Shown here: piece after piece, positions 4,966 to 45,228 of the stretch
Layout of the letters: each line of letters starts with the position of its first letter
How positions within the stretch are numbered: position 1 is the first letter of the stretch
DNA from: Sulfuriroseicoccus oceanibius
GTDB taxonomy: Bacteria > Verrucomicrobiota > Verrucomicrobiia > Verrucomicrobiales > SLCJ01
NCBI RefSeq assembly: GCF_010681825.2
Contig: NZ_CP066776.1
Coordinates: 1,798,001 to 1,862,000 of the forward strand
Direction of reading: 5' to 3'
DNA length: 64,000 nucleotides
Made by a program: the position numbers and the translations under genes
The notes under the pieces: generated by a model
Told to the model about the DNA's origin: nothing
What the model saw: only the letters and a program-made list of their open reading frames with translations
The model's database searches: none

Positions 4966-7900
4966 CTACTCCCCGTCCCCATCGCCTCGGAGTTTCTCCC
5001 ACAGGTTGGCGTGGTTGAGTAGGACGCGCAGGATGCCGTGTAAGGTGTCCTTTGAGTTGAGGGCTTTGGTGCTCATTGTGCTATGGGCGTCCAGAGCCTC
5101 GATAATGGCGTCCTGCAGTGCTGGCATGAGGTCCGGGGAGCTGGCGAACTGCTCTTTGCTGTTGCTTTGGGCCTGGGTGCGGAGCTTGTCGGATTCGAGC
5201 AGCTTGCCGAGGATGACGTTGTTGACATAGATCAGCTGGTCATCGTCCGTGGTCTCCGTGCCGAAGAGCTCATTGAGCTGCTCGATGATGGCACTCATTT
5301 GTACCTTCTGCTTCTCCTGGATGGATCCGCTGCCCGATTCGGTGATCGGCTTGAGGTACTCTCCTTTGCCCTCACCAAGAGTGGTGTCGGAGTTCTTCTG
5401 CTTGTTGAGCTTGTGGTGGGTCAGCTTCACCTTGGACAGGTCAATGCCATCGCGCTCGCGGCCGAAGTCCAGCAGGCGTACCAGATGCTTGTAGAAAATG
5501 GCGCGCTTCTCGATGTCGGTGTTGCCGTAGTCGAAGATCTGCGAGAGGAAGGTGTAGAGGCGCAGGAAGGCACCGAGGTCGGCCTTGAAGAGGGTCAGGC
5601 AATCCATCTCTTCCTTGGCTGCTTTGGCTCCAGAATCATCGCCCTTTTCCTTGGCCTGCGTGTAGGCGGCTGTGGCGGCTTTGAATCGCTTGAGCAGGCG
5701 GTCTGCGACAGGCTCAATCGCTTTGAAAAGCATGGCCTGCGTCGCGTCGTAGCGCAGCTCGATGTTGACCACGCGATCGACTTCGTTGTCATCGTAGAAG
5801 CCTGCACCGTCGAGCTTGGCGCGGAGGTTGTAGACCAAGTTTGGATCCGTGGTGGTTTCCAGCTCGGCTGTCTCGTAATAGACCTGGAACGACTTGAGGA
5901 TGTCCTCGGCTTCGTTGGCAAAGTCGACCACATAGGTGGTGTCTTTGCCCGGGTGGCAGCGGTTCAGTCGCGACAAGGTCTGGACGGCCTGGATCCCGGA
6001 AAGGCGTTTGTCCACATACATCGCGCAGAGCAGCGGTTGGTCGAAGCCGGTCTGGAATTTGTTTGCCACCAGAAGGATGTGGAATGCCTCGTCCTTGAAG
6101 GCTTCGCGGATGTCACGTCCGTGCAGACCGGAATTGAGCGTCTCCGAGGTTTCGGTGAACTCATCCGGGCCGGATTCAGGGTCGCTGACTTTGCCGGAGA
6201 AGGCGACAAGGGTGCCATAGCCGTAGCCCTTCTCCTTGATGTATTGGTTGATCGCCAGCGACCAGCGCACCGCCTCCTTGCGGCTGCCCACCACGACCAT
6301 GGCCTTGGCCTTGCCATCGAGCAGCTTGGTGACGTTCTGGCGGTAGTGCTCGACGATGATTTCCACCTTTTGGGAGATGTTGTACGGGTGCAGGCGGACC
6401 CAGCCCATGATGCCCTTCATGGCGGTGGACTTCTCCACCTGGGTGTCATCGTAGTCCTTGCCTTGGTGGGAGAGTTTGAATGCCAGCTTGTAGTTGGTGT
6501 AGTTCTTCAGCACGTCGAGGATGAATCCCTCCTCAATGGCCTGACGCATCGAGTAGACGTGGAATGGCCGCGGCACGTTGTCCTCCGCAGGCTTGCGGCT
6601 CGGATCCGGGCGGGTGCCAAAGATCTCCAGAGTTTTGCCCTTAGGGGTGGCGGTAAAGGCGACAAAGGTCACTCCTTGGTCATCGGCGCGGGCAGTCATT
6701 TGTGCGGCAAGAATGTCCTCCGCGCTGATTTCGCCCCCGTCGTTGATTTCCTCCAGCTCTTCCGGGCTGAGCACCGCCTTGAGCTTGGCTGCGGCCTCAC
6801 CGGTTTGCGAACTATGGGCTTCGTCCGCGATCACTGCGAAGCGCTTGCCTTCCGTAGCAGCCAGCTCACGCACCTTTTCCAAGGCGAACGGGAAGGTCTG
6901 GATCGTACAAACCACGATCTTCTTGTCCCCTGAGAGAGCCTCGGCCAATGCGGCACTCTTGCTCCCGGTCTTGCCGTCAATGCGGGCGACCACGCCGGTC
7001 TTGCGCTGGAAGTTGAATAAAGCGTCCTGCAGCTGGGAATCGATCACATTGCGGTCGGAGACCACGATCACACTGTCGAACACCTTCTCATCCTTGGCAT
7101 CGTGCAGCTCGGAGAAAAAGTGCGCCGTCCATGCGATCGAGTTCGTCTTACCCGATCCTGCCGAGTGCTGGACCAGGTACTTGGTGCCGGGGCCGTCCGC
7201 TACCACCGCCTGTTGCAGTTTGCGGGTGGCATCGAGCTGATGATAACGAGGGAAGATGACCTTGTTGATCTTACCTTTCTTGTCCTTCTCGCTGATGAGG
7301 TAACGACCAAGAATCTCCAGCCATCCCTCGCGTTGCCACACCTGTTCCCAGAGGTAACTGGTGGAGTGTCCGTTCGGGTTGAGCGGATTCCCAGCGCCTC
7401 CGTTGTTCCCCAGGTTGAAGGGGAGGAAGAAGGTGTTACCTCCCACTAACTTGGTGGTCATGTGGACCTCGCGGTTACTCACGGCAAAGTGAACCAAGGC
7501 TCCCGATGGGAACGAGAGCAGAGGCTCCGGGTTCTGCCCCTTGGGTTTGGGGTTCCGGTCGTAGCGGTATTGGTCGATGGCATCGCCCACGCATTGAGTG
7601 AAGTCCGTCTTTAGTTCAGCTGTGGCAATGGGCAGCCCATTGAGGAAGAGCACGAGATCGATCGAGTTCTCGTTGTAGAGCGAGTAATGAACTTGGCGCA
7701 CCACGCGCAAACGGTTCGCCTCATAGCGGCTTTGGATCTCCGGGTTGAGCGCGAAGGCCGGTTTGAACTGAGCGAGGCGCAGCGCCTGTCTGAGCCCGAG
7801 CAGTTCCACTCCATTGCGCAGAACATCCAGCGAACCGCGTTGGTTGAGTTGGTCGCGCACACGGGTGAGCAGCGTGGTTTCCGCCTGGCTGCCGTGGTTC

Positions 7901-8082
7901 TTCACCAGCGCCTCCCATGCCTTCGGCTGCGACTCCTTCACCCACGCCACGAGGTCGGCCGGGAAAAGCGCCCGCTCCCGGTCATAGTGCTGGGCATCGC
8001 CCTTGGCGTAGAGCCAGCCGTGCTTGGAAAGGTGGGCGCAGATCTCGTCTTCGAAGCTGATTTCCTTGTGGATGTCGTGCAT
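4966..8082 (-). CDS. hsdR: Type I restriction enzyme R subunit
   Basis: 1038 residues from ATG 8082 (MHDIHKEISFEDE); a longer frame adds 15 unlikely residues. HsdR is the translocase-nuclease subunit that cuts unmethylated DNA at a distance from the HsdS-recognised site. Nuclease motif: D142 followed by E156-L-K158 in SIDLVLF...TAELK. Walker A HSAGSGKTN is near 305-314, DEAH at 420-423, and TATPKGKTLEIFG follows as a superfamily 2 motif III region. LVANKFQTGFDQP and TLSRLNRCHPGKD are the late helicase motifs. It ends the operon that begins with hsdM at 21719, but is separated from hsdS by four other genes. Length is normal for the family, and no disruption is seen. Confidence 0.95.
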   Translation of the reverse strand: MHDIHKEISFEDEICAHLSKHGWLYAKGDAQHYDRERALFPADLVAWVKESQPKAWEALVKNHGSQAETTLLTRVRDQLNQRGSLDVLRNGVELLGLRQALRLAQFKPAFALNPEIQSRYEANRLRVVRQVHYSLYNENSIDLVLFLNGLPIATAELKTDFTQCVGDAIDQYRYDRNPKPKGQNPEPLLSFPSGALVHFAVSNREVHMTTKLVGGNTFFLPFNLGNNGGAGNPLNPNGHSTSYLWEQVWQREGWLEILGRYLISEKDKKGKINKVIFPRYHQLDATRKLQQAVVADGPGTKYLVQHSAGSGKTNSIAWTAHFFSELHDAKDEKVFDSVIVVSDRNVIDSQLQDALFNFQRKTGVVARIDGKTGSKSAALAEALSGDKKIVVCTIQTFPFALEKVRELAATEGKRFAVIADEAHSSQTGEAAAKLKAVLSPEELEEINDGGEISAEDILAAQMTARADDQGVTFVAFTATPKGKTLEIFGTRPDPSRKPAEDNVPRPFHVYSMRQAIEEGFILDVLKNYTNYKLAFKLSHQGKDYDDTQVEKSTAMKGIMGWVRLHPYNISQKVEIIVEHYRQNVTKLLDGKAKAMVVVGSRKEAVRWSLAINQYIKEKGYGYGTLVAFSGKVSDPESGPDEFTETSETLNSGLHGRDIREAFKDEAFHILLVANKFQTGFDQPLLCAMYVDKRLSGIQAVQTLSRLNRCHPGKDTTYVVDFANEAEDILKSFQVYYETAELETTTDPNLVYNLRAKLDGAGFYDDNEVDRVVNIELRYDATQAMLFKAIEPVADRLLKRFKAATAAYTQAKEKGDDSGAKAAKEEMDCLTLFKADLGAFLRLYTFLSQIFDYGNTDIEKRAIFYKHLVRLLDFGRERDGIDLSKVKLTHHKLNKQKNSDTTLGEGKGEYLKPITESGSGSIQEKQKVQMSAIIEQLNELFGTETTDDDQLIYVNNVILGKLLESDKLRTQAQSNSKEQFASSPDLMPALQDAIIEALDAHSTMSTKALNSKDTLHGILRVLLNHANLWEKLRGDGDGE

Positions 8083-8304
8083 GGGAGAGGGTGGGGAGGT
8101 GCCAAATGAGCGGTTACTTTGTAGCAACCGATGGGGATTGGATTAGTGGGATGGGGGCGGGAAATGTGATCTTGGCGGTCATTTTTTGAATGATGCCGTG
8201 GTTTTCATTCAGGTATCCCGCCGGTGTCGCGGTTCGCGCCTTGCGTCACTCGAAAAAGCTTTCCGCCATTTGTCGGGTTTGGCTGTTCGATTGATAGGAT
8301 CTGT
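8083..8304. other. 222-bp gap within defence operon
   Basis: This is the longest spacer in the operon, between the helicase gene and hsdR. I see no gene and no strong T-tailed hairpin. It is long enough to carry a separate hsdR promoter on the minus strand, but I cannot point to a convincing one. Confidence 0.4.
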
Positions 8305-11300
8305 CTAATTGGAGGAGAGGGCGCGTTCGATGCACTCACGTCCATTTGAGGAAAGCCGTCTGACCCCAAAGAGTCTTGAGATTTCATAAGCCTGGTCATC
8401 GCCTTGGATGTGCTTCGAGGCCAAGAGGATTTCTTCAGGGGCGATATGTTCGATTTTGCGGGTGCTGTCCTCGCAGACAGGGACACGGGGTGAAGATAGA
8501 GAGGCTTTCGATGCCTCGTCTATCCAAATGAAGGAACTTGAATCTCCATCCGAGCTGGTATGGAAGTGCTCGTCCACAATTGAAAAAATTCTCTCCCTGA
8601 TCAGTCGTCCGGATCGTTTGAATCCATGAACCCGGGCGATACGATTGACCAAAAGGTCGTCGGCAATTGGAGCCTCTGTCTTCAAGGTGTGCTCGATGAG
8701 CTCTTTCAGAACTGGTGTGTAGAGTTCATCGTGAAAAAGCTCGGGGTCGAGTTTGCTTTCAAAGGCAGCGAAGTCCGTTACTACGTATTCCACCGGTCTG
8801 GCGATTGTCTGTGATTCTTGGGGAGTGGTGGTTTTCGTAGTGACCGGGCTCTCTTCTGCAGGGATGGTATCCACCGCATTGCAGGCGATTTTCTTCAGTG
8901 GAAGGAGCTCCTCCGGCTGCTCGGTATCAGTAGTATCGAAAGCGTTGGTATCCCTGAACTCCAAGATCTTGGATTCAGTTTTCAGCTTGTCCGCTTCGAG
9001 TAACTCACGGATAGCCGTGTCGAGACGTTCTATCTCGGCTTCCTGGTTGACGAACCAATCGGTTGACCACACACGCAGTAGCTTCCAACCGAGCCCTTCG
9101 AGAACAGAGGCCCTCACTTTATCCCTGTCTCGAGCAGTAGCCGCGCTGTGGTAGGTAGCTCCGTCGCATTCGACGCCCACCAAGAAATCTCCCGGGCGAT
9201 CAGGATGCACGATGCCCAAGTCGATCCGGAAGCGGGAGACTCCGACCTGAGGGACGATTTGCCAACCCTTCTCTTCCAAGCGTCGGGCAACGGCTTCTTC
9301 GAATGGGGAATCATATCCGCCGACTGAGCCTTTTACCGCCTCGGCCAGGGCACGAGGGCCGCGTTCAGCAAACTCCAGGAAGTGTTTCAGGTCCTTGACT
9401 GCGCGTGCACTGGTACGGTTCAGGTCGATCATTGAGGGGTCGAACGAGGTGAAAACCTTCATTTCGCGGCGTGATCGCGTGAGTGCGACGTTGAGTCGGC
9501 GTTCGCCACCGTCCCGGTTTAGTGGACCGAAATTCATCGACATGGTCGGCGATCCTGGCTCGGTCGGACCATAGCCGATACTCAGGAGAATGAAGTCCCT
9601 CTCGTCACCCTGTACGGTTTCCAGGTTCTTCACCACGACTGGCTCGGTGCGGTCCGGGCTGAAGAACGGTTCTATTTCGGGTTGCTTTCGTCTGGCATCA
9701 TCCAAGAGGTCTTCGATCAGTCGCTGCTGGTCGGCATTCAAGGTGATGACACCGAGCGAATAATCTGCGGCAACAAACTCTGGATCGGTCAGTAGGCGAA
9801 CCACTTCAGCCACGATGGCCTTGGCTTCGTCCTGGTTGGTTCGAGCCTTGCCCTTTGCATAGACACCATCGACGCGTCTCCATGTGACAGCACTCTCACG
9901 TGTCTCTGCGGCGGGGAAAGTGATCAAGTTGCCGCCGTAGTATTGGTGGTTGGAAAATGCGATCAGGCTCTCGTGACGGCTTCGGTAGTGCCAGGACAGG
10001 CTATGGCGTGGAATCCCGACAGCCAGACATTCATCGAGGATGCTCTCCATGTCGTCCTCAACACTGCCGTCGAAGTCGCTATCGCCACTGGCGCGTTGGA
10101 AGAAGTTGGTGGGGGGCATTTGTTTTGGATCACCCGCTACGATCACTTGTTTTCCCCGGGCGATCGAACCCACCGCATCCCACGGTGCAATCTGGGAGGC
10201 TTCGTCGAAGATCACCAGATCGAACAACTCTTGGTCGGCAGGCAGGTACTGGGCGATCGAAAGCGGGCTCATGAGCATGCATGGTGCCAGATAGCCGAAA
10301 GCACTACCCATTTCAGATGCCAGCTGGCGGAGAGGTTTGTGGCGGCGCTTTTTCTGCAGTTCATGCTTCAAGATGCCGTAGCCGTCCTTTTTGCCGACTT
10401 CTGTTTTGGACGGGAGGCGTCCAGCGAGCACGGTGCGGGTGTACTCTATGCTAAGGCGAGCGACCTCATCGTCGATCTTGCGGAATTCATCGATGCTGTC
10501 CATGTGCTCGACGGCAACGAAGTCACGCAGGATGGGCTCGCGATCGATTGATTGGGCGGCAAACCATTTGCTATAGGCTGCCAGGAAGGACGGCTCGACC
10601 TCACCTTTCGGCAAGCTGCCGTTCTCCGCCGCAACTATGAGGGGTTGCAGGCCAAGTGAGAGCGCATCTTGACGGACCCTTTGCCAAGTACACCATGACT
10701 TGAGCTTGTGTTCGTTGTCCGTGATGGCGCTACAGCTTTGATCCAATGCATCGAAGGAGGGAATCTCGTCATTGGCTATCCCACACAAGGTGGTGAATTG
10801 GTCAAAAGCGATGCTGTATTCTTCTAATGCTTGAGCCAGTCGGGCTGTCGCTTGGCTGATGCTGCCTTCTGGTGAGAGCATCATATTGGCATCCACGACG
10901 ATCCTGCGCGTAGCAGATGACAAGTCGACGTACTCATCAGGCTCGGTAGCCAGTGAGGAGAGTTTGCCCCGGAGCGCGGTGCTCAATTTCAGGGCTTCTG
11001 CCAATTGCTTGGTATCTGACTTGAGGAGGTTGAACCCTGGTACGTCATTCAGCAGCTTATCCAGCCCACTGACTTTCAGGTGTATCTCCCTCAATCGTCT
11101 GAGGTGTGGGAGATCGGATGGAACATCGGGTACACCACTACAGCCTCCGGCTTGGGCTAGTTGCTTTGCCACCTTCTTCTTCGCGAATAGGGCAAGGATC
11201 AGGAATTTGCCCTGCGCCTCGTTCCATGCGCTCTCGATCTGCTCGATGTTTACTTTGGCTGGCGCATCCGCGGAATAGGGGACAGAGAGGTTCTTTAGTA

Positions 11301-14157
11301 GCCTCTGGTATTCATCCAGCAGAGGAATCAACTCATCAATTGCAGCAGACTTCTTGTTGATGTCCGGGCTGAATGCAAAATTGAGATCCCATTCATAAGT
11401 GAGCAGGACGGTTTTGATGAAGTCCAATAGCTTACTGGTAGCTTCGTGGTCGTTCGCTTCCAACTTGAGGTTGCAGCTCGCCAGTACCTTGTCCCTGGCA
11501 CCGCGCAGATTTTCGGCTTTTTGGGGCAGGCGTTGGGCGTGACTGAGTACAGACTCCTGCCACTGGTTGGACCATTCCTTATGCGTGATGATCGAGAAAT
11601 CCGCAGGGCACGCAGAGAATGATTCCAGGTTGAGGTCAAGTCTTCTGGCAACCTCACGCATCTGATCGAATGTGTCACGGTCGTGAACAGTCCCGGCATG
11701 CCACTTGAGTGCAGGTGTGGCACTGGAATGGTCTCTGGCAACGATACCGATGGCTTGATGGACGCTCATTCCATTGGGATGCCGCTCATGGAGACACTGG
11801 CTGACTTTGTTGAGTCGGTCACGTAAAGTGCGCAGGCGCGTGGTTTCTGCGTCCCATTTGGATTGGCTCAGGTCTCCGCGTACTTCCCATGCTCGGTCAA
11901 GTTGCTGCAGGATCTCCATTTTGGAGGTGTTGTTCGAATGCACCTCAAGACAGAAATCGCCCAGCCCTCTCTCTTCGAGTCGACGGTATACCACTTCCAA
12001 TGCCGCCATCTTTTCCGCGACGAAGAGAACACGACGGCCCTGAGAAATGTTGTGAACGATCATGTTGGCGATCGTTTGTGATTTGCCTGTGCCTGGGGGG
12101 CCGTCCAACACGAAGTGAGAGCCTTGACCCGAAGCAACCACGGCGGCTAACTGGGAGGAATCTGCGGGCAACGGGGCGAACAAGGATGATGGGTCTACTT
12201 TCTCATCCAGTTCATGTTCCTTTGGATATTCACTGTTGCCTTCAAACCCCTCTTGGCCACGCTCGATCAAGTGCTTGACCACAGGATTCTCGAGGAGTTG
12301 CTCCCGGCGATCCACCAGGTCTTTCCACATGAGGTATTTGGCGAATGAGAAGGTGCCTATGGCCGTATCGGTGGTGACCTCAAATCCGGCGATGTCCTTC
12401 ACTGCAACCCGGACATGATTCCAGATACCTTCCACATCGATGCCGCTCGCGTCTTCGGGGAGGTCGCCGTCCAAGCCCGGGATGTGAAGGTCGAAGTCTT
12501 GGCGCAATAGCTCCAGTAAGGTGAGGTTGAAGCGGGGCTCGTCCTCATGGCTGGTCATCACCACTCCGGAGAGTGCACTTCTACGCGTCAGGGTGACTGG
12601 GTAAAGGATGAGTGGGGCGCGATAGGTGCGTGGGTCTTCTGCGCTTTTCTTCCAGTTGAGGAAGCCCAGTGCGAGGAAAAGTGTGTTGGCTCCACCTTCA
12701 GCAAGGTCGGAATTTGCCTTTCGGTAGAGATCGATCAACGACGCCTCAAGCTTCTTCGCGGGCAGTGGGGAAAGTACTTCTCTGGAAGCCAAAGCATCCA
12801 AGGCGTATTGCTTGGTCAGATCTTCGTTGTTTTGCTGGCCGTAGAGTTCGACGTCGCGACCTCCTGCGGACAGGTCAGGCGTGGCTGAGATTTTGATTGA
12901 TTTGCCTGCTGCAAGCATATCCTCCAAGGTGCCGGGGGCTGGGCAGGTCAAAGGGATGTGTTTGCTGTTCGGCGGGAGATGCAGCAATCGGTTTCTTGCT
13001 GTGAGATCAAGTAGCTTGCGCTGCCATTGAGTAATGCGGTCGTCTGGAGTTTCCGCAGTGGTGGTGATTTCAATATCGATCGGCGGCAGGACTGGCGCTT
13101 CTTCCAAAGCATCTGAAATCTCTTGCTTCTCAACGTGCTCCGCTTGCTTGGCAATTGGTGACGCTAACCCAAGCGGCTTGATACGGCGCATGCGGGCGCG
13201 ACGAATATCAATCGCCATGTGGAACTCGTCATCGTTAAGCTTCGCTTCGGCATGTTTGACCGCCTTACTGAAGGGCGGTGTGGGCGACTTGGTTACCAGC
13301 GTGGTCTCAAATACCAGGATCTCCTTCAACTCGACTCGCTTTCGCACAGCCATGGCCTCCTCGATGGTCAGTTGGGTGAACTCCTGAGGTTGCAACCAGA
13401 CACCAACAAAGGCATGCCCTTCCGTGATCACGATGAGGGGATTGAGGCTGGCCTGTTCCAGAGCAGCTGCGAACAGCATGGAACTGTCCAAGCAGGTGGC
13501 CAGACGACCTTCGAGTATGGCTCCCGGGGTGCGGACCTTTTGTCCTGATGTCTCGAAGCTCGCGGGGGGCAGGGAGTAGCTTAGTTGGAGTCCAGCCACA
13601 GCGGACCATATTGCCGAGGTGATTTCCCAAACCCTGCTGCGTGAGCGGTCCTCATAGCCGTTGATGGAGTCGTTCTTGCCTGCCCGGCGCAGGGTGTCGC
13701 TGGCCATCTTCAAGACTTTGTCGATGGCTGGATCGTTCGGCATGCAGAATGCGGGAAGCAACTCGGGCATCGACGCGGTGCCGCCCCAATGGGTCTTTGC
13801 CAGCAACTCCACAGGGTAGGATTCACTCGCTACCTTTTCTCCATCGACATCCTCCTTACATACCTCGATGACAACATCCCCGCTGACGCCTTCGGTCAAG
13901 TCCGCCAGCATCCCGGCATTCAGTTTGACATCTCTTTCAGGTAACCGGATCCTCGAACCGGGCTCGATCCGATCGACGCGCCAGATCTTGGTCTCTAGAA
14001 ATCCAAGGTCGCTCTTGAGCACGATCACCAGATCCTCCATGACCTCTTCCCCCTTGTTTTCAAGGTCGAGTTCCAACAGAAGGGGGACGGAGTTCTGGTG
14101 CGAGGCAAAGCCGACTTTTTTAGCAACGGTGGCTGTGATTTCCAAGGACGTGTTCAT
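8305..14157 (-). CDS. Giant transglutaminase-like/DUF4011/SF1 helicase/Vsr-like/DUF3320 protein
   Basis: 1950 residues. In order: an N-terminal beta-rich region (1-110); a transglutaminase-like region with C222 in ATCLDSSM and H248 in EGHAFVGVW; a DUF4011 signature around 376-394 (TQWQRKLLDLTARNRLLHL); Walker A GPPGTGKSQ at about 686-694; a long helical insert (700-1250); DEASQ at 1318-1322 and GDPKQMPP near 1342-1349; late SF1 motifs TVQGDE and LNVALTRSR; a Vsr/MTES_1575-type nuclease at about 1615-1705 with D1647 and E1663-C-D; and a DUF3320-like C-terminus (1790-1950). Such COG1112 helicases are known in defence islands. Its nucleic-acid target is unknown. It lies between a GIY-YIG nuclease gene and hsdR on one strand. 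All key motifs look intact. Confidence 0.88.
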   Translation of the reverse strand: MNTSLEITATVAKKVGFASHQNSVPLLLELDLENKGEEVMEDLVIVLKSDLGFLETKIWRVDRIEPGSRIRLPERDVKLNAGMLADLTEGVSGDVVIEVCKEDVDGEKVASESYPVELLAKTHWGGTASMPELLPAFCMPNDPAIDKVLKMASDTLRRAGKNDSINGYEDRSRSRVWEITSAIWSAVAGLQLSYSLPPASFETSGQKVRTPGAILEGRLATCLDSSMLFAAALEQASLNPLIVITEGHAFVGVWLQPQEFTQLTIEEAMAVRKRVELKEILVFETTLVTKSPTPPFSKAVKHAEAKLNDDEFHMAIDIRRARMRRIKPLGLASPIAKQAEHVEKQEISDALEEAPVLPPIDIEITTTAETPDDRITQWQRKLLDLTARNRLLHLPPNSKHIPLTCPAPGTLEDMLAAGKSIKISATPDLSAGGRDVELYGQQNNEDLTKQYALDALASREVLSPLPAKKLEASLIDLYRKANSDLAEGGANTLFLALGFLNWKKSAEDPRTYRAPLILYPVTLTRRSALSGVVMTSHEDEPRFNLTLLELLRQDFDLHIPGLDGDLPEDASGIDVEGIWNHVRVAVKDIAGFEVTTDTAIGTFSFAKYLMWKDLVDRREQLLENPVVKHLIERGQEGFEGNSEYPKEHELDEKVDPSSLFAPLPADSSQLAAVVASGQGSHFVLDGPPGTGKSQTIANMIVHNISQGRRVLFVAEKMAALEVVYRRLEERGLGDFCLEVHSNNTSKMEILQQLDRAWEVRGDLSQSKWDAETTRLRTLRDRLNKVSQCLHERHPNGMSVHQAIGIVARDHSSATPALKWHAGTVHDRDTFDQMREVARRLDLNLESFSACPADFSIITHKEWSNQWQESVLSHAQRLPQKAENLRGARDKVLASCNLKLEANDHEATSKLLDFIKTVLLTYEWDLNFAFSPDINKKSAAIDELIPLLDEYQRLLKNLSVPYSADAPAKVNIEQIESAWNEAQGKFLILALFAKKKVAKQLAQAGGCSGVPDVPSDLPHLRRLREIHLKVSGLDKLLNDVPGFNLLKSDTKQLAEALKLSTALRGKLSSLATEPDEYVDLSSATRRIVVDANMMLSPEGSISQATARLAQALEEYSIAFDQFTTLCGIANDEIPSFDALDQSCSAITDNEHKLKSWCTWQRVRQDALSLGLQPLIVAAENGSLPKGEVEPSFLAAYSKWFAAQSIDREPILRDFVAVEHMDSIDEFRKIDDEVARLSIEYTRTVLAGRLPSKTEVGKKDGYGILKHELQKKRRHKPLRQLASEMGSAFGYLAPCMLMSPLSIAQYLPADQELFDLVIFDEASQIAPWDAVGSIARGKQVIVAGDPKQMPPTNFFQRASGDSDFDGSVEDDMESILDECLAVGIPRHSLSWHYRSRHESLIAFSNHQYYGGNLITFPAAETRESAVTWRRVDGVYAKGKARTNQDEAKAIVAEVVRLLTDPEFVAADYSLGVITLNADQQRLIEDLLDDARRKQPEIEPFFSPDRTEPVVVKNLETVQGDERDFILLSIGYGPTEPGSPTMSMNFGPLNRDGGERRLNVALTRSRREMKVFTSFDPSMIDLNRTSARAVKDLKHFLEFAERGPRALAEAVKGSVGGYDSPFEEAVARRLEEKGWQIVPQVGVSRFRIDLGIVHPDRPGDFLVGVECDGATYHSAATARDRDKVRASVLEGLGWKLLRVWSTDWFVNQEAEIERLDTAIRELLEADKLKTESKILEFRDTNAFDTTDTEQPEELLPLKKIACNAVDTIPAEESPVTTKTTTPQESQTIARPVEYVVTDFAAFESKLDPELFHDELYTPVLKELIEHTLKTEAPIADDLLVNRIARVHGFKRSGRLIRERIFSIVDEHFHTSSDGDSSSFIWIDEASKASLSSPRVPVCEDSTRKIEHIAPEEILLASKHIQGDDQAYEISRLFGVRRLSSNGRECIERALSSN

Positions 14158-14260
14158 GATGTTTGGATGCGTTGGGGGCTCTCTTACGCCAGTTGGTGCA
14201 GGATGAACTTTCAGAGGCTAACAGAAAGTATCTGGATGTCGTGCAAGGGGGAGGGTGGGG

Positions 14261-15148
14261 TTATGCGTTGATGAGTTCTTTGGGCTGTTGGGATTGGCGT
14301 TTCACATCGTCCAGCGTTTTTCCATCTTCGGTCTTCCACTCGATCCAGCCGTTGGCCGAGCGGCCCTTCAGTGCGATGGCCGCCGCGCTGGGCGAGGCGA
14401 ACAAATGATCCTTGGTGAAGGTGAGCGAATCGCCATCGACCTCCACCACGTCCGATGCGATGATCTTCTCCCGCCATTTTTCGGTGCTGGTGTCCTTGAT
14501 CGACTTCACGCTGGAGCGGCGTCCTTTGGATCCCTTGAGGACGACAAATCCCTCCGTGTTGTAGATTCCGACGCCTTCGGTTCCCGGGCCTTTGCAGTAG
14601 AATTTCTGTTCGCTTTCCGAGCCACTTTCGGGCGTGACCAAGGGGGTGAACAGCGGATATCCGAGCGTGCCCAACAAGCTGCGAGCTGTGTCGAAGATCT
14701 CCAGGCATTCAGCCTCCAAGGGAGCTGGCGTGTGCGGTTTCGACCCGCCGTTGCCATTCTCGTCCGAGTAACGCTCCGCTTTGCGGATTTCCTGCAGGGA
14801 GAGCCACTCCAAAAACAGGCCGTGGGTCTGGGTCAGACTGTTGGTCCGGGAGATCAGTATCAGTGCCCGCTCCCAGAAATCCTTTTTGCTGTCGTTGTTG
14901 TGCTGCGAGAGGCGTTTTCGCAGTTCGCCGGTTTGCCCGACGTAGACCAGTGGCTGCTCGCCGGACTCGCCTCCCACCAGGAAGTACAACCCGACCTGCC
15001 CGCTCTCCGGCATCTTGAGGAAGTCCTGCAGCAGGCTGCGGGGAACCTCGATCACCTGGACAATGCGGGTGGTGATTTCGGCGATGCGGATGCCTCGTGG
15101 ATCCCCGTCAGGGAGGAAGATTTGGATCGTTTTGGCGTTAGGAGTCAT
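14261..15148 (-). CDS. GIY-YIG nuclease with DUF4357 domain
   Basis: 295 residues. GIY-YIG core at about 50-110: VGLYFLVGG for the first strand, YVGQTGELRKRLSQHN for the second, then a conserved helix ending in FLEWLSLQEI, whose glutamate is the usual metal ligand. The C-terminal 75 residues (LFASPSAAAIALKGRSANGW, IEWK) match DUF4357, which often follows GIY-YIG domains near restriction systems. The gene starts 15 bp after the DUF262/DUF1524 gene and ends 103 bp before the giant helicase, so the three are probably co-transcribed. Likely a sequence- or structure-specific DNA nuclease; substrate unknown. Family assignment is strong, role inferred from the neighbourhood. Confidence 0.88.
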   Translation of the reverse strand: MTPNAKTIQIFLPDGDPRGIRIAEITTRIVQVIEVPRSLLQDFLKMPESGQVGLYFLVGGESGEQPLVYVGQTGELRKRLSQHNNDSKKDFWERALILISRTNSLTQTHGLFLEWLSLQEIRKAERYSDENGNGGSKPHTPAPLEAECLEIFDTARSLLGTLGYPLFTPLVTPESGSESEQKFYCKGPGTEGVGIYNTEGFVVLKGSKGRRSSVKSIKDTSTEKWREKIIASDVVEVDGDSLTFTKDHLFASPSAAAIALKGRSANGWIEWKTEDGKTLDDVKRQSQQPKELINA

Positions 15149-15163
15149 GAGGGAAGGCTGTGC

Positions 15164-17185
15164 TCAGCTGGCTGCTGTATCGGTGTTGAGTAGTGTCGAG
15201 ATCATCTCCTCTTCGTGCTCGAGGATTGCCGCCTTGTCCCAGTTGTCAAACTGCATCATGAGGTGCTGCTTGGGACTATCGATGGAGTTCTGGGCGTAAT
15301 AGTCCTTCTTGGCCGCCGGGCTGAAGTTGCTGAGGCGGGAGTTCTTGCTGTGGCTGATCAAGCAGAGGTTGCCAAAGTAATGTAGGGAAGGATCGTCGCT
15401 CATATCCTTGACTCCCTCCATCGGTGTCTGCGGGTAGTAGTGCTCGACGGAACTGCGGAAAGTGAACTCGTAGTTTGCAATCTGCTTTTGACTGTTGTCG
15501 TTGCGGTATTTCTGCCACAGCAGGTAGTCGAGGTAGTTGAAGACCAAGTTGTTTTTGATCTTGGTGAAGCGCATTTGCGGGCTGATGTCCCCAGCGGAAA
15601 GCGTACCTGGATCCCGCTGAGGTTTTCCTTTGCGGCGATAGATCATCTCGTAATAGGAGGCTCCTTCACCTTTTACCAGATAGCGATCAAATACGAAGGC
15701 GCGAGCCACGCCCTCCATGTGTGTCAGGTACTCGCTCGCGATGACGTCAGATTCGTTGCTGAACAAATAGTTCAGAGCCGCATTGAGCCAGTGCTTGTAG
15801 ACCATGGTTGGCGTCGACACATGAAATGCGGAGAGCAGCATCAACAGGCTGCGATTGAGCTGATCATCGCCTCCGTCGAAGGTGTTTACATAGCTGCTCT
15901 TGCCAAGGGAATTACGGCTATCACCTTTGTTCCATTTGTAGCGCTTCAGGCTCCATGAATCGGATCCCTTGAGGAACTCGCGCTTGATAATGTAGTGGTC
16001 GAACAGGTGCTTACCCTTCAGTAGGTTGAAGATGAATTTCCGGCTCCTCTCAAGCGGAGCCTCCGCCTTGAGGATATGCTCCTCAAAGAGTTGAATCAGT
16101 CTCTTGTCGTCGAGTGGAACGTCATTGTCCGTGTGTGCCTGCGTACCTTCGTTGACGCTGATCCTCAGAATGTGGAGCAGGAAGTTCGGGAAGTTGATCA
16201 CCGAGTTGAAGCGGTCGGGAGTATCGTCCCCATCCTCGGTAGTTGTGCGCTCCTTTACTGGGTTGGCGATGATGTAGGACAAGGCTTTGCTCTCATCAGC
16301 GCTGCTTTCCTCGCTGTGCTGGGCTACGGTTTGACACAACTGCTCGAAGTTCTTCGGCTGCAATTCATCCCATTTCTGGTCCCCGAACAGCTCATTACGC
16401 AGCTTCGGAGAGAACCCTGACTGGGCGTATTTCTCCATGTTCGCGCAGGACTCCCAGACCAGATGCAGGGTCCGCTTCGAGCTCTCTTTGATTGCATCAT
16501 CAGGCTCTTGGTTCAGCACCTCCAGCAGCTTCGCCTTGAGCACTTCATGTTTCTCCAGCTGTTCGCCACGGCTGTTCATGATCTCAAAGTAGTGATTGAG
16601 GTCGGTATCGTCCGGGACTTGAATCCGCATGACCTGCACCTGCTCAAAGAGGAACCGCTCGAAATGTTGGAGCTTCTCCGGGCTGTTCTTGAAGGCGAGA
16701 TCCAGAGCCTCGCCGATCAGCCGGTAGCCGTTGGTGATACCGGTATTGATCTCCTCTGGCTTGAGCGCGTCACTGGGCTCCTTGTGGAAGTGACGGTTGG
16801 TGATCGTATCGAAGGTCTTCTTCGACAGCGGTCGGCTTTCGAAGTGGATCTTGGCGTCGCGGTACCACGCTGTGTTCGCAGATCCGTTGTTCTTCAGGTA
16901 CGAAGTCAGCAAGGAGAGTGTGGTAAGCCGCTGCTGGCCATCGATCGTCTCAAAGACCGTGTGCCGCGCCGAACGATCGGCTTGCCGACGGAAGACCACG
17001 AGCGAGCCGATGTAGTAGGGCCGCTGCTCGGGCATGTAGTCGATGATGTCCTGGATCAGTTGGGTGATCTCACCCTTCTCCCACGCGTAATTGCGCTGGT
17101 ACATGGGAATGAGGTAAGTGTCATCGCTCCCCAGCAGTTGCTTGACGGTAAGTTGAGTGACTTCTTCGGTGTTGCTAAACGGCAT
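15164..17185 (-). CDS. DUF262-DUF1524 (GmrSD-like) nuclease
   Basis: 673 residues. The N-terminus has the DUF262 (GmrS-like) motifs: IPMYQRNYAWEKGEITQL near residue 22-40 and TIDGQQRLTTLSLL near 80. The DGQQR box is the ParB-like NTPase motif. The C-terminus has a DUF1524 (GmrD-like, HNH-type) region with VEHYYPQTP. GmrSD enzymes are type IV, cutting DNA with modified cytosines such as glucosylated hydroxymethylcytosine. That specificity is known for the founding enzyme and only inferred here. The start overlaps the end of the preceding DUF262 gene by 11 bp, indicating translational coupling. Length is typical of single-chain GmrSD enzymes. Confidence 0.9.
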   Translation of the reverse strand: MPFSNTEEVTQLTVKQLLGSDDTYLIPMYQRNYAWEKGEITQLIQDIIDYMPEQRPYYIGSLVVFRRQADRSARHTVFETIDGQQRLTTLSLLTSYLKNNGSANTAWYRDAKIHFESRPLSKKTFDTITNRHFHKEPSDALKPEEINTGITNGYRLIGEALDLAFKNSPEKLQHFERFLFEQVQVMRIQVPDDTDLNHYFEIMNSRGEQLEKHEVLKAKLLEVLNQEPDDAIKESSKRTLHLVWESCANMEKYAQSGFSPKLRNELFGDQKWDELQPKNFEQLCQTVAQHSEESSADESKALSYIIANPVKERTTTEDGDDTPDRFNSVINFPNFLLHILRISVNEGTQAHTDNDVPLDDKRLIQLFEEHILKAEAPLERSRKFIFNLLKGKHLFDHYIIKREFLKGSDSWSLKRYKWNKGDSRNSLGKSSYVNTFDGGDDQLNRSLLMLLSAFHVSTPTMVYKHWLNAALNYLFSNESDVIASEYLTHMEGVARAFVFDRYLVKGEGASYYEMIYRRKGKPQRDPGTLSAGDISPQMRFTKIKNNLVFNYLDYLLWQKYRNDNSQKQIANYEFTFRSSVEHYYPQTPMEGVKDMSDDPSLHYFGNLCLISHSKNSRLSNFSPAAKKDYYAQNSIDSPKQHLMMQFDNWDKAAILEHEEEMISTLLNTDTAAS

Positions 17186-18623
17186 AGTACCTCATTTCTT
17201 CAAAAAGCTCCCTGATCGCCTTGGTGGCTTCAGTCTTGTGGACGTCCTTCTCTTGTAATGTGTCGAGCGGGTAGCTGAGGAACTCACTCGGGTGGGTGGA
17301 TTCCCTGACCAGCTTGAACAGATTACCGTTATCCAGCACGTGGTTGTCCATGCTCGCGAGTTGGACCACCTGCTGCCTCAGGCGCAGCGTGTAGGACCAG
17401 ATGAAAATCTTCTCCACCGCCCGCGAGATCTCCGTCAGTCCGAACTTGTCGACGTAGTAGAGCAGCAAGCAGTCAAAGATGGAGCGTGTGTAGCGGTCGC
17501 CGGTGCGGTTTCTACCAGAGTAGGTGTTCAGAGTATCCAGGATGCGCCGTGGCAGCTCGTCCAGCTTGGTGTGGTCTACGATGGGGGGCAGCTTCTCTCC
17601 GGCATGACGGATATCCTTCACCTTGTTCTGGTAATGGGATACCAGCTCGAAGAAACGGCGGCCGTTGATGATGATCTGGTCGAGGTGGAAAGGGAAGTCG
17701 AGGCGATGGTGATCGATCCGGCGCTCGTACTGGTGGTTGTAGTGATCGACGAAATGGTGGGCCATCCGTAGTTGCTCCACATAGGGATAGTCAGCGATCT
17801 TCTCCATGTTCACCCCCTTGAACAGGCCGGTGTCGTTCTTACCAAAGTAGCGGGCGGAGCTGTCCTTCGCCCAGTTTCTGATCCGGTAGAGGTAGAGGGC
17901 AAACAGATTGGCGAGCTCCTCGGTCTCGGAGTTCTCCCATTGGGCCACGGTGGCAGCCTTCAGTGATTCATCGGCTTCGGTGAACTCCCGCAGGTGGTAG
18001 GCCTTGAGCAGATCGTGCGGTTCCAGGTCTCGACCACGTGCGTTCTGCGAATCGAAAAACTGGAACGCTTCGGAGACATTCTCCAGCGAGAAGGTCACCA
18101 ACTGGCATTTCTCCAGCAGGAACACCATCAGCTCCTCGGTGAAATCCGGGCGGGTGACCAGGCGGCAGATCTCTTGGTAGTTGCGGTAGATGTTGAGGTG
18201 GGAGATCTCGCTGTCGAACTCCGGGTCGATCAAACCTTGTGCATCAAAATCACTCAGGTGCTTCTTCAGCCGGTGGTCTTCAACCTGATCCCGGCGCTCC
18301 TTGAGGAAGGCTTTTACGATCAAGAGCAAGGTGATCGTCCGCTGCTGTCCGTCTACAATGTTTCTGCAGCCCTTTTCCTTGTGGAAGACAATGGTGCCCA
18401 AGCGGTAGGAGGACTTGCCCTGGTGCTTGGTAATGTCCCCAAAGAGCTGGTTCACGTTCCTCACGCCCCACTTGTAGGGACGCTGGTATTCCGGGATGCG
18501 CAGCGACTGGTCGGAGAGGAGCGCTTTGACACTGATGATCGCCTTGTCCAACGGCTCGGCAGTACGAGTGTCTGCGGTGCCGTTGGGTTTCGCGCTTGGA
18601 TGGTCGGCAACAAGCTGGCTCAT
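17175..18623 (-). CDS. Stand-alone DUF262 (GmrS-like) protein
   Basis: 482 residues. N-terminal DUF262 motifs are present: RIPEYQRPYKWGVRNVNQL near 42-60 and NIVDGQQRTITLLL near 95, followed by QNARGRDLEPHDLLKAYHL. The C-terminal half is helical, and I see no DUF1524 or HNH motif, unlike the next gene. It may form a pair with the DUF262-DUF1524 protein, supplying a second NTPase or sensor subunit. The start overlaps the end of hsdS by four bases (18620-18623) and its end overlaps the next start, so hsdS and both DUF262 genes are tightly coupled. The name RloF has been used for DUF262 genes inside type I loci, but I have not verified orthology. Confidence 0.85.
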   Translation of the reverse strand: MSQLVADHPSAKPNGTADTRTAEPLDKAIISVKALLSDQSLRIPEYQRPYKWGVRNVNQLFGDITKHQGKSSYRLGTIVFHKEKGCRNIVDGQQRTITLLLIVKAFLKERRDQVEDHRLKKHLSDFDAQGLIDPEFDSEISHLNIYRNYQEICRLVTRPDFTEELMVFLLEKCQLVTFSLENVSEAFQFFDSQNARGRDLEPHDLLKAYHLREFTEADESLKAATVAQWENSETEELANLFALYLYRIRNWAKDSSARYFGKNDTGLFKGVNMEKIADYPYVEQLRMAHHFVDHYNHQYERRIDHHRLDFPFHLDQIIINGRRFFELVSHYQNKVKDIRHAGEKLPPIVDHTKLDELPRRILDTLNTYSGRNRTGDRYTRSIFDCLLLYYVDKFGLTEISRAVEKIFIWSYTLRLRQQVVQLASMDNHVLDNGNLFKLVRESTHPSEFLSYPLDTLQEKDVHKTEATKAIRELFEEMRYYAV

Positions 18624-19921
18624 GCGGACACCTCCTGACTGACGTCGATTTGGCCGGTGACGGCGGCGGAGATGAGGGCGGTGCGACGCTCCTGCAAGAG
18701 CTCGATCGCCCGCTCGGCCTCAGCGGTGAGGGTGTCGAGTTTGTTGTTCTCATTAGCTAGGTGAGTCGCAATGGCGGCTCGTTCATCGGCTGGTGGGTAC
18801 GGAATCTCGAAGTTGTTTAAGACGCCAATTGTCAGTTGGTTGATCGTTGATGTCATGAAGGCGCCTGCCTGAAATTCAAACAGAGGTGAGTTCAATACAC
18901 ATCCAATGAACGCGCTATCAGGGCTCCGGTAGATGGTCATGAAGGCACCAAAGGTAAGTCCTTGTGATTGTTCGGTAATTGTTGCGTTTTTCCCGATGAG
19001 AGCACGGCTTCCATTTCGGGAACAGATCAAGATGTCACCCGGTCTTGTGATCAATTTCTCAGGGATCTCGCAACAGACATAGACGTTATCATTGAATGAT
19101 ATCTGCCCTTTTTGGACATTGGATGATCGTAATACCAGTGTACCGCAACTCTCATCGACGATGTCCCCTGGACCGTAAGTGAGCCCAATAATGGCCTCAC
19201 CTAGGTGTTTAAGTTTCTTCACCTCCCAATGCTCTGGGATGTCGCCGAGCCATTCGATGCCGGAGGGTTTGAGTGGGGCCTTGGGGGTGAGGCCTTTGGT
19301 GACGGCGTGGGAGATGAGGGCCTGGCGCTTTTCCTTGAGCAGCGCGATGAGGCGGCCTTGTTCTTCGATCAGCGCGTCGATCTTGGCGGTCTCCCGGTCG
19401 AGAAAGGCGGCGATGGCCCGTTGCTCGGTGAGGGGGGGGAAGACCAACGGCATTCGACTGTGCAGTTCAGGCTGTAAGTCCCATTGGTTAACACGGATCC
19501 CTTTAGAATTAGAAAGGTAGCCTGTGATGTAACGAGGAGACCTCATCAAGTAATGTAGGAAGCGGCTCTCTTCTTTGTGGAGGGCGCGTAAGACGAAGTA
19601 TGCAGGGCTGACAATGCCACGATGATCAGATATCGCGACTGATCCCTGCCAAGCCTTCATCTTGTTAATGGCTAGATCACCGGGCTCAACCAGCTGGTAG
19701 CCACTTAGATCTTCAGATGGCTTGTTGAAGTTATCGTTGCGACTAGCCTTTGGAATTACTCCTAGATCCCGGTAAACGGAGAGCAGCTCCTCATCAGGAT
19801 ACCCAGTACGTTTAATTCTACGAAAAGCGGTCCATAGCGGTTTTACCTCCCAATGCTCTGGCACTTCACCGAGCCACTGGACGCCGATGTCTTTGTATTT
19901 GGGGTAGCGTGGGAAGCTCAT
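18620..19921 (-). CDS. hsdS: Type I restriction specificity subunit
   Basis: 433 residues with the two-fold layout of HsdS. The first target-recognition domain opens with GVQWLGEVPEHWEVKPLW and ends in the central helix with LDRETAKIDALIEEQGRL. The second opens with GIEWLGDIPEHWEVKKL near 215 and ends with ENNKLDTLTAEAERAIELL. Each half reads one part of a split DNA site and sets specificity for both HsdM and HsdR. The two recognition domains differ, so the site is predicted to be asymmetric and bipartite. It starts 49 bp after hsdM and overlaps the following DUF262 gene by four bases. No phase-variable repeat was noticed. Confidence 0.94.
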   Translation of the reverse strand: MSFPRYPKYKDIGVQWLGEVPEHWEVKPLWTAFRRIKRTGYPDEELLSVYRDLGVIPKASRNDNFNKPSEDLSGYQLVEPGDLAINKMKAWQGSVAISDHRGIVSPAYFVLRALHKEESRFLHYLMRSPRYITGYLSNSKGIRVNQWDLQPELHSRMPLVFPPLTEQRAIAAFLDRETAKIDALIEEQGRLIALLKEKRQALISHAVTKGLTPKAPLKPSGIEWLGDIPEHWEVKKLKHLGEAIIGLTYGPGDIVDESCGTLVLRSSNVQKGQISFNDNVYVCCEIPEKLITRPGDILICSRNGSRALIGKNATITEQSQGLTFGAFMTIYRSPDSAFIGCVLNSPLFEFQAGAFMTSTINQLTIGVLNNFEIPYPPADERAAIATHLANENNKLDTLTAEAERAIELLQERRTALISAAVTGQIDVSQEVSA

Positions 19922-19970
19922 GGTTGGAAAAGCTGAAATGTTGAAAGCGGAAAACTGAAATCCTGATGCT

Positions 19971-21719
19971 TCACTGGGAGAGACCTTGGATGAGGTTGAG
20001 GATCTTGTCGGTGCAGTCCTTGAGGTCGGCGTCGATGGCTTCTAGCTGGCGCGGCGGGGTGAAGACGTAGAAGTGGCGGTTGAAGGGGATCTCGTAGCCG
20101 ACCTTGGTCTTGCTGTGGTCGATCCAGGCGTCTGCGGCATGGGGCAGGACCTCGCGCTGGAAGTAGGCCTCGACGTCCTCGCTGAGGGGGACGTTCTCGG
20201 TATCGCGCAGGGAGGAGTCTGGCTGGGGCTGGCCTTTGGCTTTGCCGCGTTGGCCGAGGACGATCTCGCCCTTGTCATCCCGCTGGGGGCGCTCGACGGT
20301 GATGGTGTGGTAGCCGAAGTCTTCGTTATTGAAGATGCGGGAGACGGGCTTGCCGTCGCGGCTGGCTTCCTCGAAGTCGCCGAAGAGGCGGGTGATGTCG
20401 TCGATGTGCTCGGGGGAGAGTTGCTTGCGCTTGGAGCCGAGCGATTTGCGCATTTTCTCCCAGAAGGAGGAGGCATCGATGAGCTGGACCTTGCCCTTGC
20501 GGTGGGCGGGCTTGCGGTTGGAAACGATCCAGACGTAGGTGGAGATGCCGGTGTTGTAGAACATGTCTGTGGGGAGGCCGATGATGGCCTCGACGAGGTC
20601 GTTCTCCAGCATGTAGCGGCGGATCTCGCTCTCGCCGGAGCCCGCGCCGCCGGTGAAGAGGGGCGAGCCATTGAGCACGATCCCGAACCGGCTGCCACCG
20701 TCTTTGGCCGGGCGCATCTTGGAGACCAGGTGCATGAGGAAGAGCAAGGAACCATCGGAGACGCGGGGTAAACCGGGGCCGAAGCGGCCGTTGAAGCCCT
20801 GCTCTTTGTGCTCCTTGGTGATGGCGGTTTTGATCTTCTTCCACTCCACGCCGAAGGGCGGGTTGGAGAGCATGTAGTCGAAGTGCTTGGCGGGGAGGCC
20901 GTCCTCGGAAAGGGTGTTGCCGTGGATGATGTTGGTGATGTCCTGGCCTTTGATGAGCATGTCGGCCTTGCAGATGGCGTAGGATTCGCCATTGAGCTCC
21001 TGGCCGAACATCACGAGGCGGGCGTCGGGGTTGATCTCGGTGAGGTGTTCGTCGGCCACGCTGAGCATGCCACCGGTCCCTGCGGTGGGATCGTAGAGGG
21101 AGCGGACGATGCCGGGCTTGGTCAGGGCTTCGTCGTCCTCGATGAAGAGGAGGTTGACCATGAGGCGGATGACCTCACGCGGGGTGAAGTGCTCCCCGGC
21201 GGTCTCGTTGGAGATCTCGGCGAACTTGCGGATGAGCTCCTCGAAGACGGCTCCCATTTCCGCATTGGAGATGGTGTCTGGGTGGAGGTCGATGGTGGCG
21301 AATTTCTCGGTGACTAGGTAGAGCAGCCCGGCTTTGTCGAGGCGGTCGATCTGGGTGTGGAAGTCGAAGCTCTCGAAGATGTCACGCACGGCGGGTGAGA
21401 AGGCCTGCATGTAGGAGCGCAGGTTCTCGCCGATGTGGTCCTGGTCGCCCATGAGCTTTTTCAGGTCGAGCGGCGAGGTGTTGTAGAAGTGCTGCTGGCT
21501 GACTTTGAGCAGGAAGGGTTCGGGGTTTAGCCCGGCGGCCTCGCGCTTGGTCTTCTCCGCCAGTACGGCTTCCTTGGTGGCCTCCAGTACGCAGTCGAGA
21601 CGACGCAGCACGGTGAAGGGTAGGACGACTTTGCCGTATTCGGATTGTTTGTAGTCGCCGCGCAGAAGGTCGGCGACCGACCAGATGAAGGAGGAGAGGT
21701 TGTTGGGTGTGTCGGCCAT
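19971..21719 (-). CDS. hsdM: Type I restriction N6-adenine methyltransferase
   Basis: 582 residues. The HsdM N-terminal helical domain (1-150) is followed by the methyltransferase fold with DPTAGTGGM at about 210-218 (AdoMet binding) and the catalytic NPPF at 286-289. HsdM with HsdS methylates adenine at the recognition site and protects host DNA. It is the first gene of the seven-gene operon. The gene is markedly GC-rich at third positions, which gives long spurious frames on the other strands. Start ATG 21719 gives [20 protein letters not shown], which fits the family N-terminus. Confidence 0.96.
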
Positions 21720-22913: not shown

Positions 22914-22981
22914 GCTTGTGGATCTAGCATGTTGGTGATTTGTTTGATTGATCCAATCGCCGATTGTTGGAGAATCCGCGG

Positions 22982-43917: not shown

Positions 43918-45087
43918 TCAGCCTGCGTTGCTTTGGTTGCGAATGGCGGTGACTTTTTCGTGTGATGGTGGAGTGATCGCCCAGTAGGTGGCTGCTGCTC
44001 TGGGCTTCACCAGTTCGCTGTAGGTGTTGTAGACCAGTGAGGCGTCGGGGTGACCCAATGCCCGAGCGAGTTTGTCGGCGTTCTCGTGCTTTGCCAGGTG
44101 GTATGAGGCAAAACAGTGACGTCCGGCGTTTGCCGGGATCTTGAAGCTGATCTTTGCTGCAAGATCTTGGAGCTCATTGCGATGGATTGCGGGGGAGGTG
44201 ATTACCGGACCGCTTTCTTGAGCGTGGGGGATCAGCCATGCTTTGAGGTTGTCGCTCATCGGCACAATCCGACGCTTGGCTGATTTTGCTTTTTCGGCGT
44301 GGATCTCGATATGCTGGTCTTCGAGGTCGATGTCTGCCCAGTCGAGTCGTTCGATCTCCGAGCGTCTTACGCCAGCGAAATAACTGATGGCCAGAGCCGG
44401 GATCAGTCGGTCGGTTGCCTTTTCCATCAGTTCGGCAACCTGCTTCGGATTGAGAATCTGGGTGCGGTTGCTCACCACCTTGGGCTTCACTGCGTTGGTG
44501 ACCGGGTTTTCGCTGGTTGCGCCTTCCCTGATCGCGTGGGCGAAGAGCTGATGTAGGATGCGGCGATGGTTGTTGACGGTTTGGGCGGCCAGACCGAGGT
44601 GGGTGAGGTAGTCATCGATTACCTCGCGGGACACGTCGCAAGCGAGCCACTCTCCGTACTTGTCGGTGAATGCCTTGAGTCGGTAGGTGACATTGCTTTG
44701 ATGCACTTCGGATCGACCCTCGGCGGCGATGCGTCGTTTCAAGGACTCGGCGATTTCGGAGCACGTCAGGGAGCGCTTTCTGATGCCTGCTCGTTCGAAG
44801 TAGAGGTCGACAGCGTCCTGGAGTTTCGGGGGAGTTGGAGTTCCCTCCATAGCAGCTGCCTGCTCGCGGAAAGAGTGCACAGCCCTGCGCTCTTCATCGG
44901 TGATAGGATCGTGTTTGGATCCGTGGTCGTCGAGCTCCTCCTGCTTCTGCTTGCGGAAGGCCTCGGCTCCGTCTTCACCGGCTTTTCCTACGAAGCGTCT
45001 GCGGTAGCGTTTGCCCCCTTCGTAGTAGACGACCTCCCACCGGTAACTTCGGTAGCTGATACGCCTCATGATGACTTCGTTGCGCAT
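43918..45087 (-). CDS. Tyrosine recombinase (integrase)
   Basis: 389 residues (ATG 45087; an internal M7 is an alternative). An N-terminal DNA-binding region (about 1-60) is basic with WEVVYYEGGKRYRRRF; a SAM-like core-binding domain spans about 85-190; the catalytic domain spans 205-365. Active-site residues: R241 in FAGVRRSEI, K266 or K268, R323-H324 in NAGRHCFAS, H346 in ALGHPDAS and Y356 in YNTYSEL. The usual H-x-x-R histidine is N320 here, a change tolerated in some recombinases. The gene's 5' end lies about 95 bp from a tRNA-Arg half at 45183, as expected for an integrase beside its attachment site. Confidence 0.93.
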   Translation of the reverse strand: MRNEVIMRRISYRSYRWEVVYYEGGKRYRRRFVGKAGEDGAEAFRKQKQEELDDHGSKHDPITDEERRAVHSFREQAAAMEGTPTPPKLQDAVDLYFERAGIRKRSLTCSEIAESLKRRIAAEGRSEVHQSNVTYRLKAFTDKYGEWLACDVSREVIDDYLTHLGLAAQTVNNHRRILHQLFAHAIREGATSENPVTNAVKPKVVSNRTQILNPKQVAELMEKATDRLIPALAISYFAGVRRSEIERLDWADIDLEDQHIEIHAEKAKSAKRRIVPMSDNLKAWLIPHAQESGPVITSPAIHRNELQDLAAKISFKIPANAGRHCFASYHLAKHENADKLARALGHPDASLVYNTYSELVKPRAAATYWAITPPSHEKVTAIRNQSNAG

Positions 45088-45182: not shown

Positions 45183-45228
45183 GCGGTTTCCGGAGCCGTA
45201 GATATAGGTTCGATTCCTATCGGGTGTA
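45183..45228 (+). other. 3' half of a tRNA-Arg(CCG) gene; element attachment site (att)
   Basis: GCGGT-TTCCGGA-GCCGT folds as an anticodon arm with anticodon CCG (45190-45192). It is followed by a four-base variable loop, the T arm ATAGG-TTCGATT-CCTAT, the acceptor strand CGGGTGT and discriminator A at 45228. A T-run at 45238-45245 is the likely tRNA terminator. No D arm or 5' acceptor strand (expected ACACCCG) precedes it, so it is a displaced 3' half. Position next to the integrase indicates that the island lies to the left and the native chromosome to the right. No encoded CCA is present. Confidence 0.7.

Follow-up and report, generated by a model that had tools for sequence, protein, structure and literature searches.

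A type I restriction-modification operon of Sulfuriroseicoccus oceanibius with three putative defence modules between hsdS and hsdR

From the perspective of its organization, the locus described here is very probably a mosaic, namely a type I restriction-modification operon with a cargo site between hsdS and hsdR that holds three separate defence modules in one transcription direction. These modules would be a pair of DUF262 genes, a GIY-YIG gene and a gene of the ProA family, which probably act in parallel and would have at most their expression in common, and the operon would travel on a tRNA-Arg genomic island. The seven genes most likely do not constitute one system. The window, that is, the whole stretch of DNA that was analysed, comprises 64,000 nt of Sulfuriroseicoccus oceanibius (NZ_CP066776.1, 1,798,001-1,862,000), and coordinates are window positions unless marked as genome positions. 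Its relevant features are the following:

19971..21719, minus strand: hsdM, type I methyltransferase subunit, 582 aa (N6_Mtase and HsdM_N above cut-off)
18620..19921, minus strand: hsdS, type I specificity subunit, 433 aa (Methylase_S; PADLOC Specificity_I, 1.3e-124)
17175..18623, minus strand: TgvA-like gene, DUF262 and DUF7834, 482 aa (DGQQR intact, without DUF1524; TgvB-like gene next in 78/78 relatives)
15164..17185, minus strand: TgvB-like gene, DUF262 and DUF1524 His-Me nuclease, 673 aa (H582, N606, N615 and N620 invariant, 31 homologues)
14261..15148, minus strand: GIY-YIG/DUF4357 nuclease, PADLOC candidate PDC-S14, 295 aa (Pfam, PADLOC, conserved residues)
14233..14260, minus strand: left copy of a 28-bp direct repeat, directly 3' of the GIY-YIG stop codon
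8305..14157, minus strand: ProA-family protein with DUF4011, SF1 helicase, MTES_1575 nuclease and DUF3320, 1950 aa (NF058533, 2185 bits; motifs conserved)
8069..8096, minus strand: right copy of the 28-bp direct repeat, across the hsdR start codon
4966..8127, minus strand: hsdR, probable true start ATG 8082 (1038 aa) (HSDR_N, SWI2_SNF2, T1R_D3; start from orthologues)
43918..45087, minus strand: tyrosine recombinase, right end of the island (PF00589 above cut-off)
45184..45216, plus strand: partial tRNA-Arg(CCG) copy, 33 bp, 91%, likely right attachment site

All seven ORFs (hsdM, hsdS, two DUF262 genes, the GIY-YIG/DUF4357 gene, the helicase-nuclease gene and hsdR) lie on the minus strand and run without a stop or frameshift. 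The order, single strand and place of this operon are thus as claimed in the preliminary description, as are the overlaps of 4 bp between hsdS and the first DUF262 gene and of 11 bp between the first and second DUF262 genes. The DUF262+DUF1524 gene is separated from the GIY-YIG gene by 15 bp, and the latter from the helicase gene by 103 bp, while the gap between the helicase gene and hsdR measures 177 bp to TTG 8127 or 222 bp to ATG 8082. Of these two starts, ATG 8082 is probably the correct one, because the orthologues begin there. Pfam domain calls on all seven genes are far beyond chance, and a scan for promoters and terminators returned fewer sites than in shuffled sequence.

In the type I enzyme, HsdM presents the N6-adenine methylase and HsdM_N domains (Pfam; the PADLOC match is also strong) and falls under the cut-off of NCBIfam TIGR00497, which is stricter than the Pfam and PADLOC models. 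Target recognition is present in HsdS (Methylase_S 36.1 bits versus a cut-off of 22), and HsdR contains both the nuclease and the SWI2/SNF2 motor, with all three of its Pfam domains above their cut-offs, a strong PADLOC match and an NCBIfam TIGR00348 score of 183.7 bits, under the cut-off of 284.55. By analogy with the family, HsdM and HsdS would methylate their own sites, and HsdR, recruited by both, would cut unmarked DNA.

On comparative grounds, the gap between hsdS and hsdR is a cargo site, since the closest sister operons hold nothing or unrelated cargo there. Among the eight sister operons with an hsdR 68-72% identical and a readable hsdS, three have an empty slot, with hsdS and hsdR overlapping by 4 bp, one holds a GIY-YIG gene only, and four carry other cargo (a family-less ORF, an AbiP2-type reverse transcriptase, PDC-S11 plus PDC-M32A, and an HTH/ImmA protein). 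Across the class, 36 operons of this hsdR family contain 54 cargo ORFs in 46 sequence families, a mechanical count in which a few ORFs may be spurious; the cargo types include GmrSD variants, AAA/OLD-like proteins, Schlafen, Shedu, reverse transcriptases and pPIWI-associated nuclease domains. Three ORFs between hsdS and hsdR without a Pfam family (L137:3149-3769, L156:16002-16823 and L151:2975-3637) are candidate defence genes. The same gap has been proposed as a possible hotspot for the recombination of defence systems in the case of the RptR-DarTG2 island of E. coli EPEC (PMC12255303), where defence cargo is likewise embedded between hsdS and hsdR. In that island, a dedicated repressor controls the cargo, a toxin-antitoxin pair, whereas no such regulator was identified in the operon described here.

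Judged by domains and motifs, the DUF262 pair is built like TgvAB and is located between hsdS and hsdR as in the published case, although this location is not obligatory. The two TgvAB genes lie within the type I operon of V. cholerae VPI-2, between its hsdS and hsdR (Vizzarro et al. 2024, PMC11411939); DUF262 is found in both proteins and DUF1524 in the second only, and both proteins are needed. TgvAB targets phages with hypermodified cytosine and is active without the HsdR nuclease, and its homologues are 17 times more frequent than the five-gene operon (PMC11411939). The operon described here shares with it the order hsdM-hsdS-[DUF262]-[DUF262+DUF1524]-hsdR, the DGQQR motif in both proteins and the His-Me finger in the second, a likeness to the V. 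cholerae pair VC1767/VC1766 at the level of gene order, domains and motifs. They differ in the GIY-YIG and ProA genes, which are added here between the pair and hsdR. The five-gene order also occurs in relatives from Acinetobacter, Shewanella and Pseudoalteromonas, genera that are listed in PMC11411939.

Each protein of the pair has an N-terminal DUF262 domain with an invariant DGQQR motif, whereas DUF1524 (PF07510) is present only in the second, where His582, Asn606, Asn615 and Asn620 are invariant among 31 homologues. DUF7834 occurs in two of 384 genomes of the class. Structure searches with the AlphaFold models of the two proteins (pLDDT 86.8 and 84.4) matched SspE, DndI and BrxU, all of them DUF262-type proteins, and returned no structural partner for the DUF7834 part itself. 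SspE and DndI are members of phosphorothioate-linked systems, and therefore the modification sensed by the pair need not be glucosyl-hydroxymethylcytosine. By extension from TgvAB, the two genes would encode a type IV enzyme of two proteins, expected to cleave DNA that carries bulky base modifications; the second protein, whose key residues are intact, would be the nuclease of the pair.

The linkage between the two DUF262 genes is strict in the sample analysed. Relatives of the first gene were found at 445 places in species genomes, of which the 80 closest were kept, and in all 78 of these that offered sufficient sequence a DUF262+DUF1524 relative lies downstream, no more than a few kb away; the two genes overlap by 4, 8 or 11 bp in most of these 78 loci. 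Around the pair of these closest relatives, 30 of 70 loci showed an hsdS upstream and 29 of 66 an hsdR downstream, the hsd genes being recognized by their resemblance to a limited set of hsd proteins, which may miss divergent ones; the pair therefore also exists without type I genes. The operon's GIY-YIG gene was found at none of the 80 loci. A third DUF262 gene is encoded elsewhere in the S. oceanibius chromosome (genome positions 1443361-1443966, locus L001).

The presence of a type I enzyme together with a GmrSD-type pair bears on the suggestion, made in the preliminary description, that one operon might cover both modified and unmodified phages. The coupling of the two in the operon makes cover of unmodified and modified phage DNA plausible; as an idea, it is not new, since this complementary cover had already been proposed for the V. 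cholerae operon, in which the pairing is also published (PMC11411939).

The second putative module, the GIY-YIG/DUF4357 protein, would be a single-gene candidate nuclease. It is a full-length match to PADLOC PDC-S14 (2.3e-105), contains DUF4357 and conserves the catalytic set Y55, Y69, G71, R79, H83 and E114, invariant in 18 homologues. In PMC12988326, citing Payne et al. 2024, PDC families are presented as candidates found embedded within other defence systems. The gene is found in 29 of 384 genomes of the class, in variable contexts. Its closest relatives are 64-66% identical and include that of locus L087, where GIY-YIG is the sole cargo between hsdS and hsdR of an operon of the same type (hsdM 83% and hsdR 71% identical), and a relative of about 50% identity stands alone between hsdS and hsdR on an Alteromonas plasmid. 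PDC-S14 in other loci thus also occupies this position, the difference being that here the slot is common to other modules.

The third putative module is the 1950-aa helicase-nuclease, with the Pfam domains DUF4011/AAA_11/AAA_12/MTES_1575/DUF3320. It matches the NCBIfam model NF058533, 'anti-phage protein ProA', over positions 2-1903 of 1903 with 2185 bits versus a cut-off of 1500, and corresponds as well to PADLOC PDC-S37. The full-length match and the identical domains identify it with this family, so that the statement that the helicase and the GIY-YIG gene have no assigned role needs amending to the extent that named families, ProA and PDC-S14, exist for them; these are family names only. 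A connection of ProA to the defence-system name 'Prometheus' would be our guess and is not used. The helicase motifs are invariant in 27 homologues and the nuclease residues mostly kept. Residues about 200-290, before DUF4011, resemble by eye a transglutaminase/papain-like fold (C222, H248 and E284, found in 11, 13 and 13 of 27 aligned rows, respectively, with 10 or 11 rows lacking the region); there is no Pfam call on this region, and that part alone is matched by many free-standing ORFs of about 400 aa.

ProA matches above the cut-off occur in 15 of 384 genomes of the class, with further ones shorter or weaker. Plasmid relatives are common in Klebsiella and Raoultella (best 53% identity), and in the one plasmid context read, from Raoultella, the gene stands alone. 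No hsd genes were detected at 28 ProA-like loci (L104-L123 and L128-L135), several of which end at contig ends, and the comparison of the flanks of the ProA gene with the fetched ProA loci gave no matches. ProA is thus found elsewhere away from type I genes, whereas here it lies inside a type I operon.

How the ProA gene came to this position is suggested by the direct repeat that brackets it (14233-14260 and 8069-8096), whose copies are identical at 26 of 28 positions. With up to three mismatches to the joint pattern, the repeat occurs at only these two places in the 3.5-Mb genome, versus about 5e-7 expected from base composition. In the left copy, TTG stands in place of the hsdR ATG of the right copy. 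If the bracketed segment is removed, the GIY-YIG stop codon comes to lie 14 bases before this ATG; the gap is 8 bases in L087. Since the repeat around the ProA gene includes the hsdR start codon, the gene would have been inserted later than the GIY-YIG/hsdR junction was formed. Most likely, this usually lone gene entered a pre-existing junction and duplicated it.

The operon likely lies on a mobile, tRNA-Arg integrative island of about 50 kb. The intact tRNA-Arg(CCG) is found at genome positions 1793399-1793470 (L183:13400-13471), and the partial copy, 49.8 kb to its right, adjoins the tyrosine recombinase; islands integrated at a tRNA typically end in this way, with the tRNA on one side and a partial copy of it next to a tyrosine recombinase on the other. 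The partial copy is itself called as a tRNA by ARAGORN, which is probably an error. The same island contains a gene for an RHS-repeat protein of 1924 aa (29174-34948, plus strand), and a gene on the strand opposite to the operon, close to its upstream end (22964-23854), combines a NERD nuclease-related domain and a topoisomerase-type zinc ribbon and matches PglW weakly.

The island setting, the ProA insertion with its junction duplication and the larger gaps of 103 bp and 177-222 bp would fit a chance pile-up, in which the cargo genes are passengers without benefit from the operon and some, above all the ProA gene and hsdR, may be unexpressed. This explanation is nevertheless improbable, as the reading frames and catalytic motifs are intact and defence-type cargo occupies the slot much too regularly to be explained by neutral insertion.

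An explanation less probable still is that the seven genes form one integrated system with common sensing, in which the mark set by HsdM/HsdS directs the inner nucleases or shields the host against them. Such a system would agree with the single strand, with the close spacing or overlap of the genes between hsdS and GIY-YIG and with the intactness of every gene. Against it, the full set did not recur in the 384 genomes of the class searched for three inner genes, at the 80 closest of the 445 relatives of the first DUF262 gene, in seven plasmid regions or in 50 genomes bearing the pair; the modules occur alone, sister operons have empty slots, and TgvAB is active without type I nuclease activity (PMC11411939). 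In the same samples, no genome besides S. oceanibius has the GIY-YIG gene and a ProA-level helicase side by side. Within the 50 pair-bearing genomes, the GIY-YIG model matches in seven and the ProA model in nine (four above the cut-off), and only one of these matches adjoins the pair, a DUF4011-type helicase under the ProA cut-off in L057. The preliminary description had taken the whole set as one possible system and had named in advance, as the result that would speak against it, inner genes occurring mostly apart. This is what was found: with the exception of the DUF262 pair (78/78), the inner genes are apart in nearly every sample, and the slots of sister operons hold other cargo.

Three candidate units were likewise rejected: the seven-gene order as a conserved system, with no second instance in the samples; GIY-YIG and ProA as a recurrent pair, as only L086 (24%) and L177 (29%) have a weakly related helicase ORF beside GIY-YIG; and the DUF262 pair with a DUF4011 helicase as a unit, L057 being the single case. 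The least probable reading is a system of coordinated layers, in which the inner nucleases would also take the HsdM/HsdS mark as the signal of what to spare, and each layer would confront the phages that have escaped the one before it.

The mosaic of a type I operon and separate cargo modules is therefore preferred; selection in this single lineage may nonetheless have favoured the exact gene combination. No other sample searched holds this particular filling, while its kind, known modules in a known cargo site, is already known. The locus represents a worked example of type I operons as landing sites, in which one operon lineage carries many fillings, and the repeat orders one insertion, that of ProA, relative to its neighbours. 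It also supports the hsdS-hsdR gap as a place for finding new defence genes, as several cargo ORFs there have no known family.
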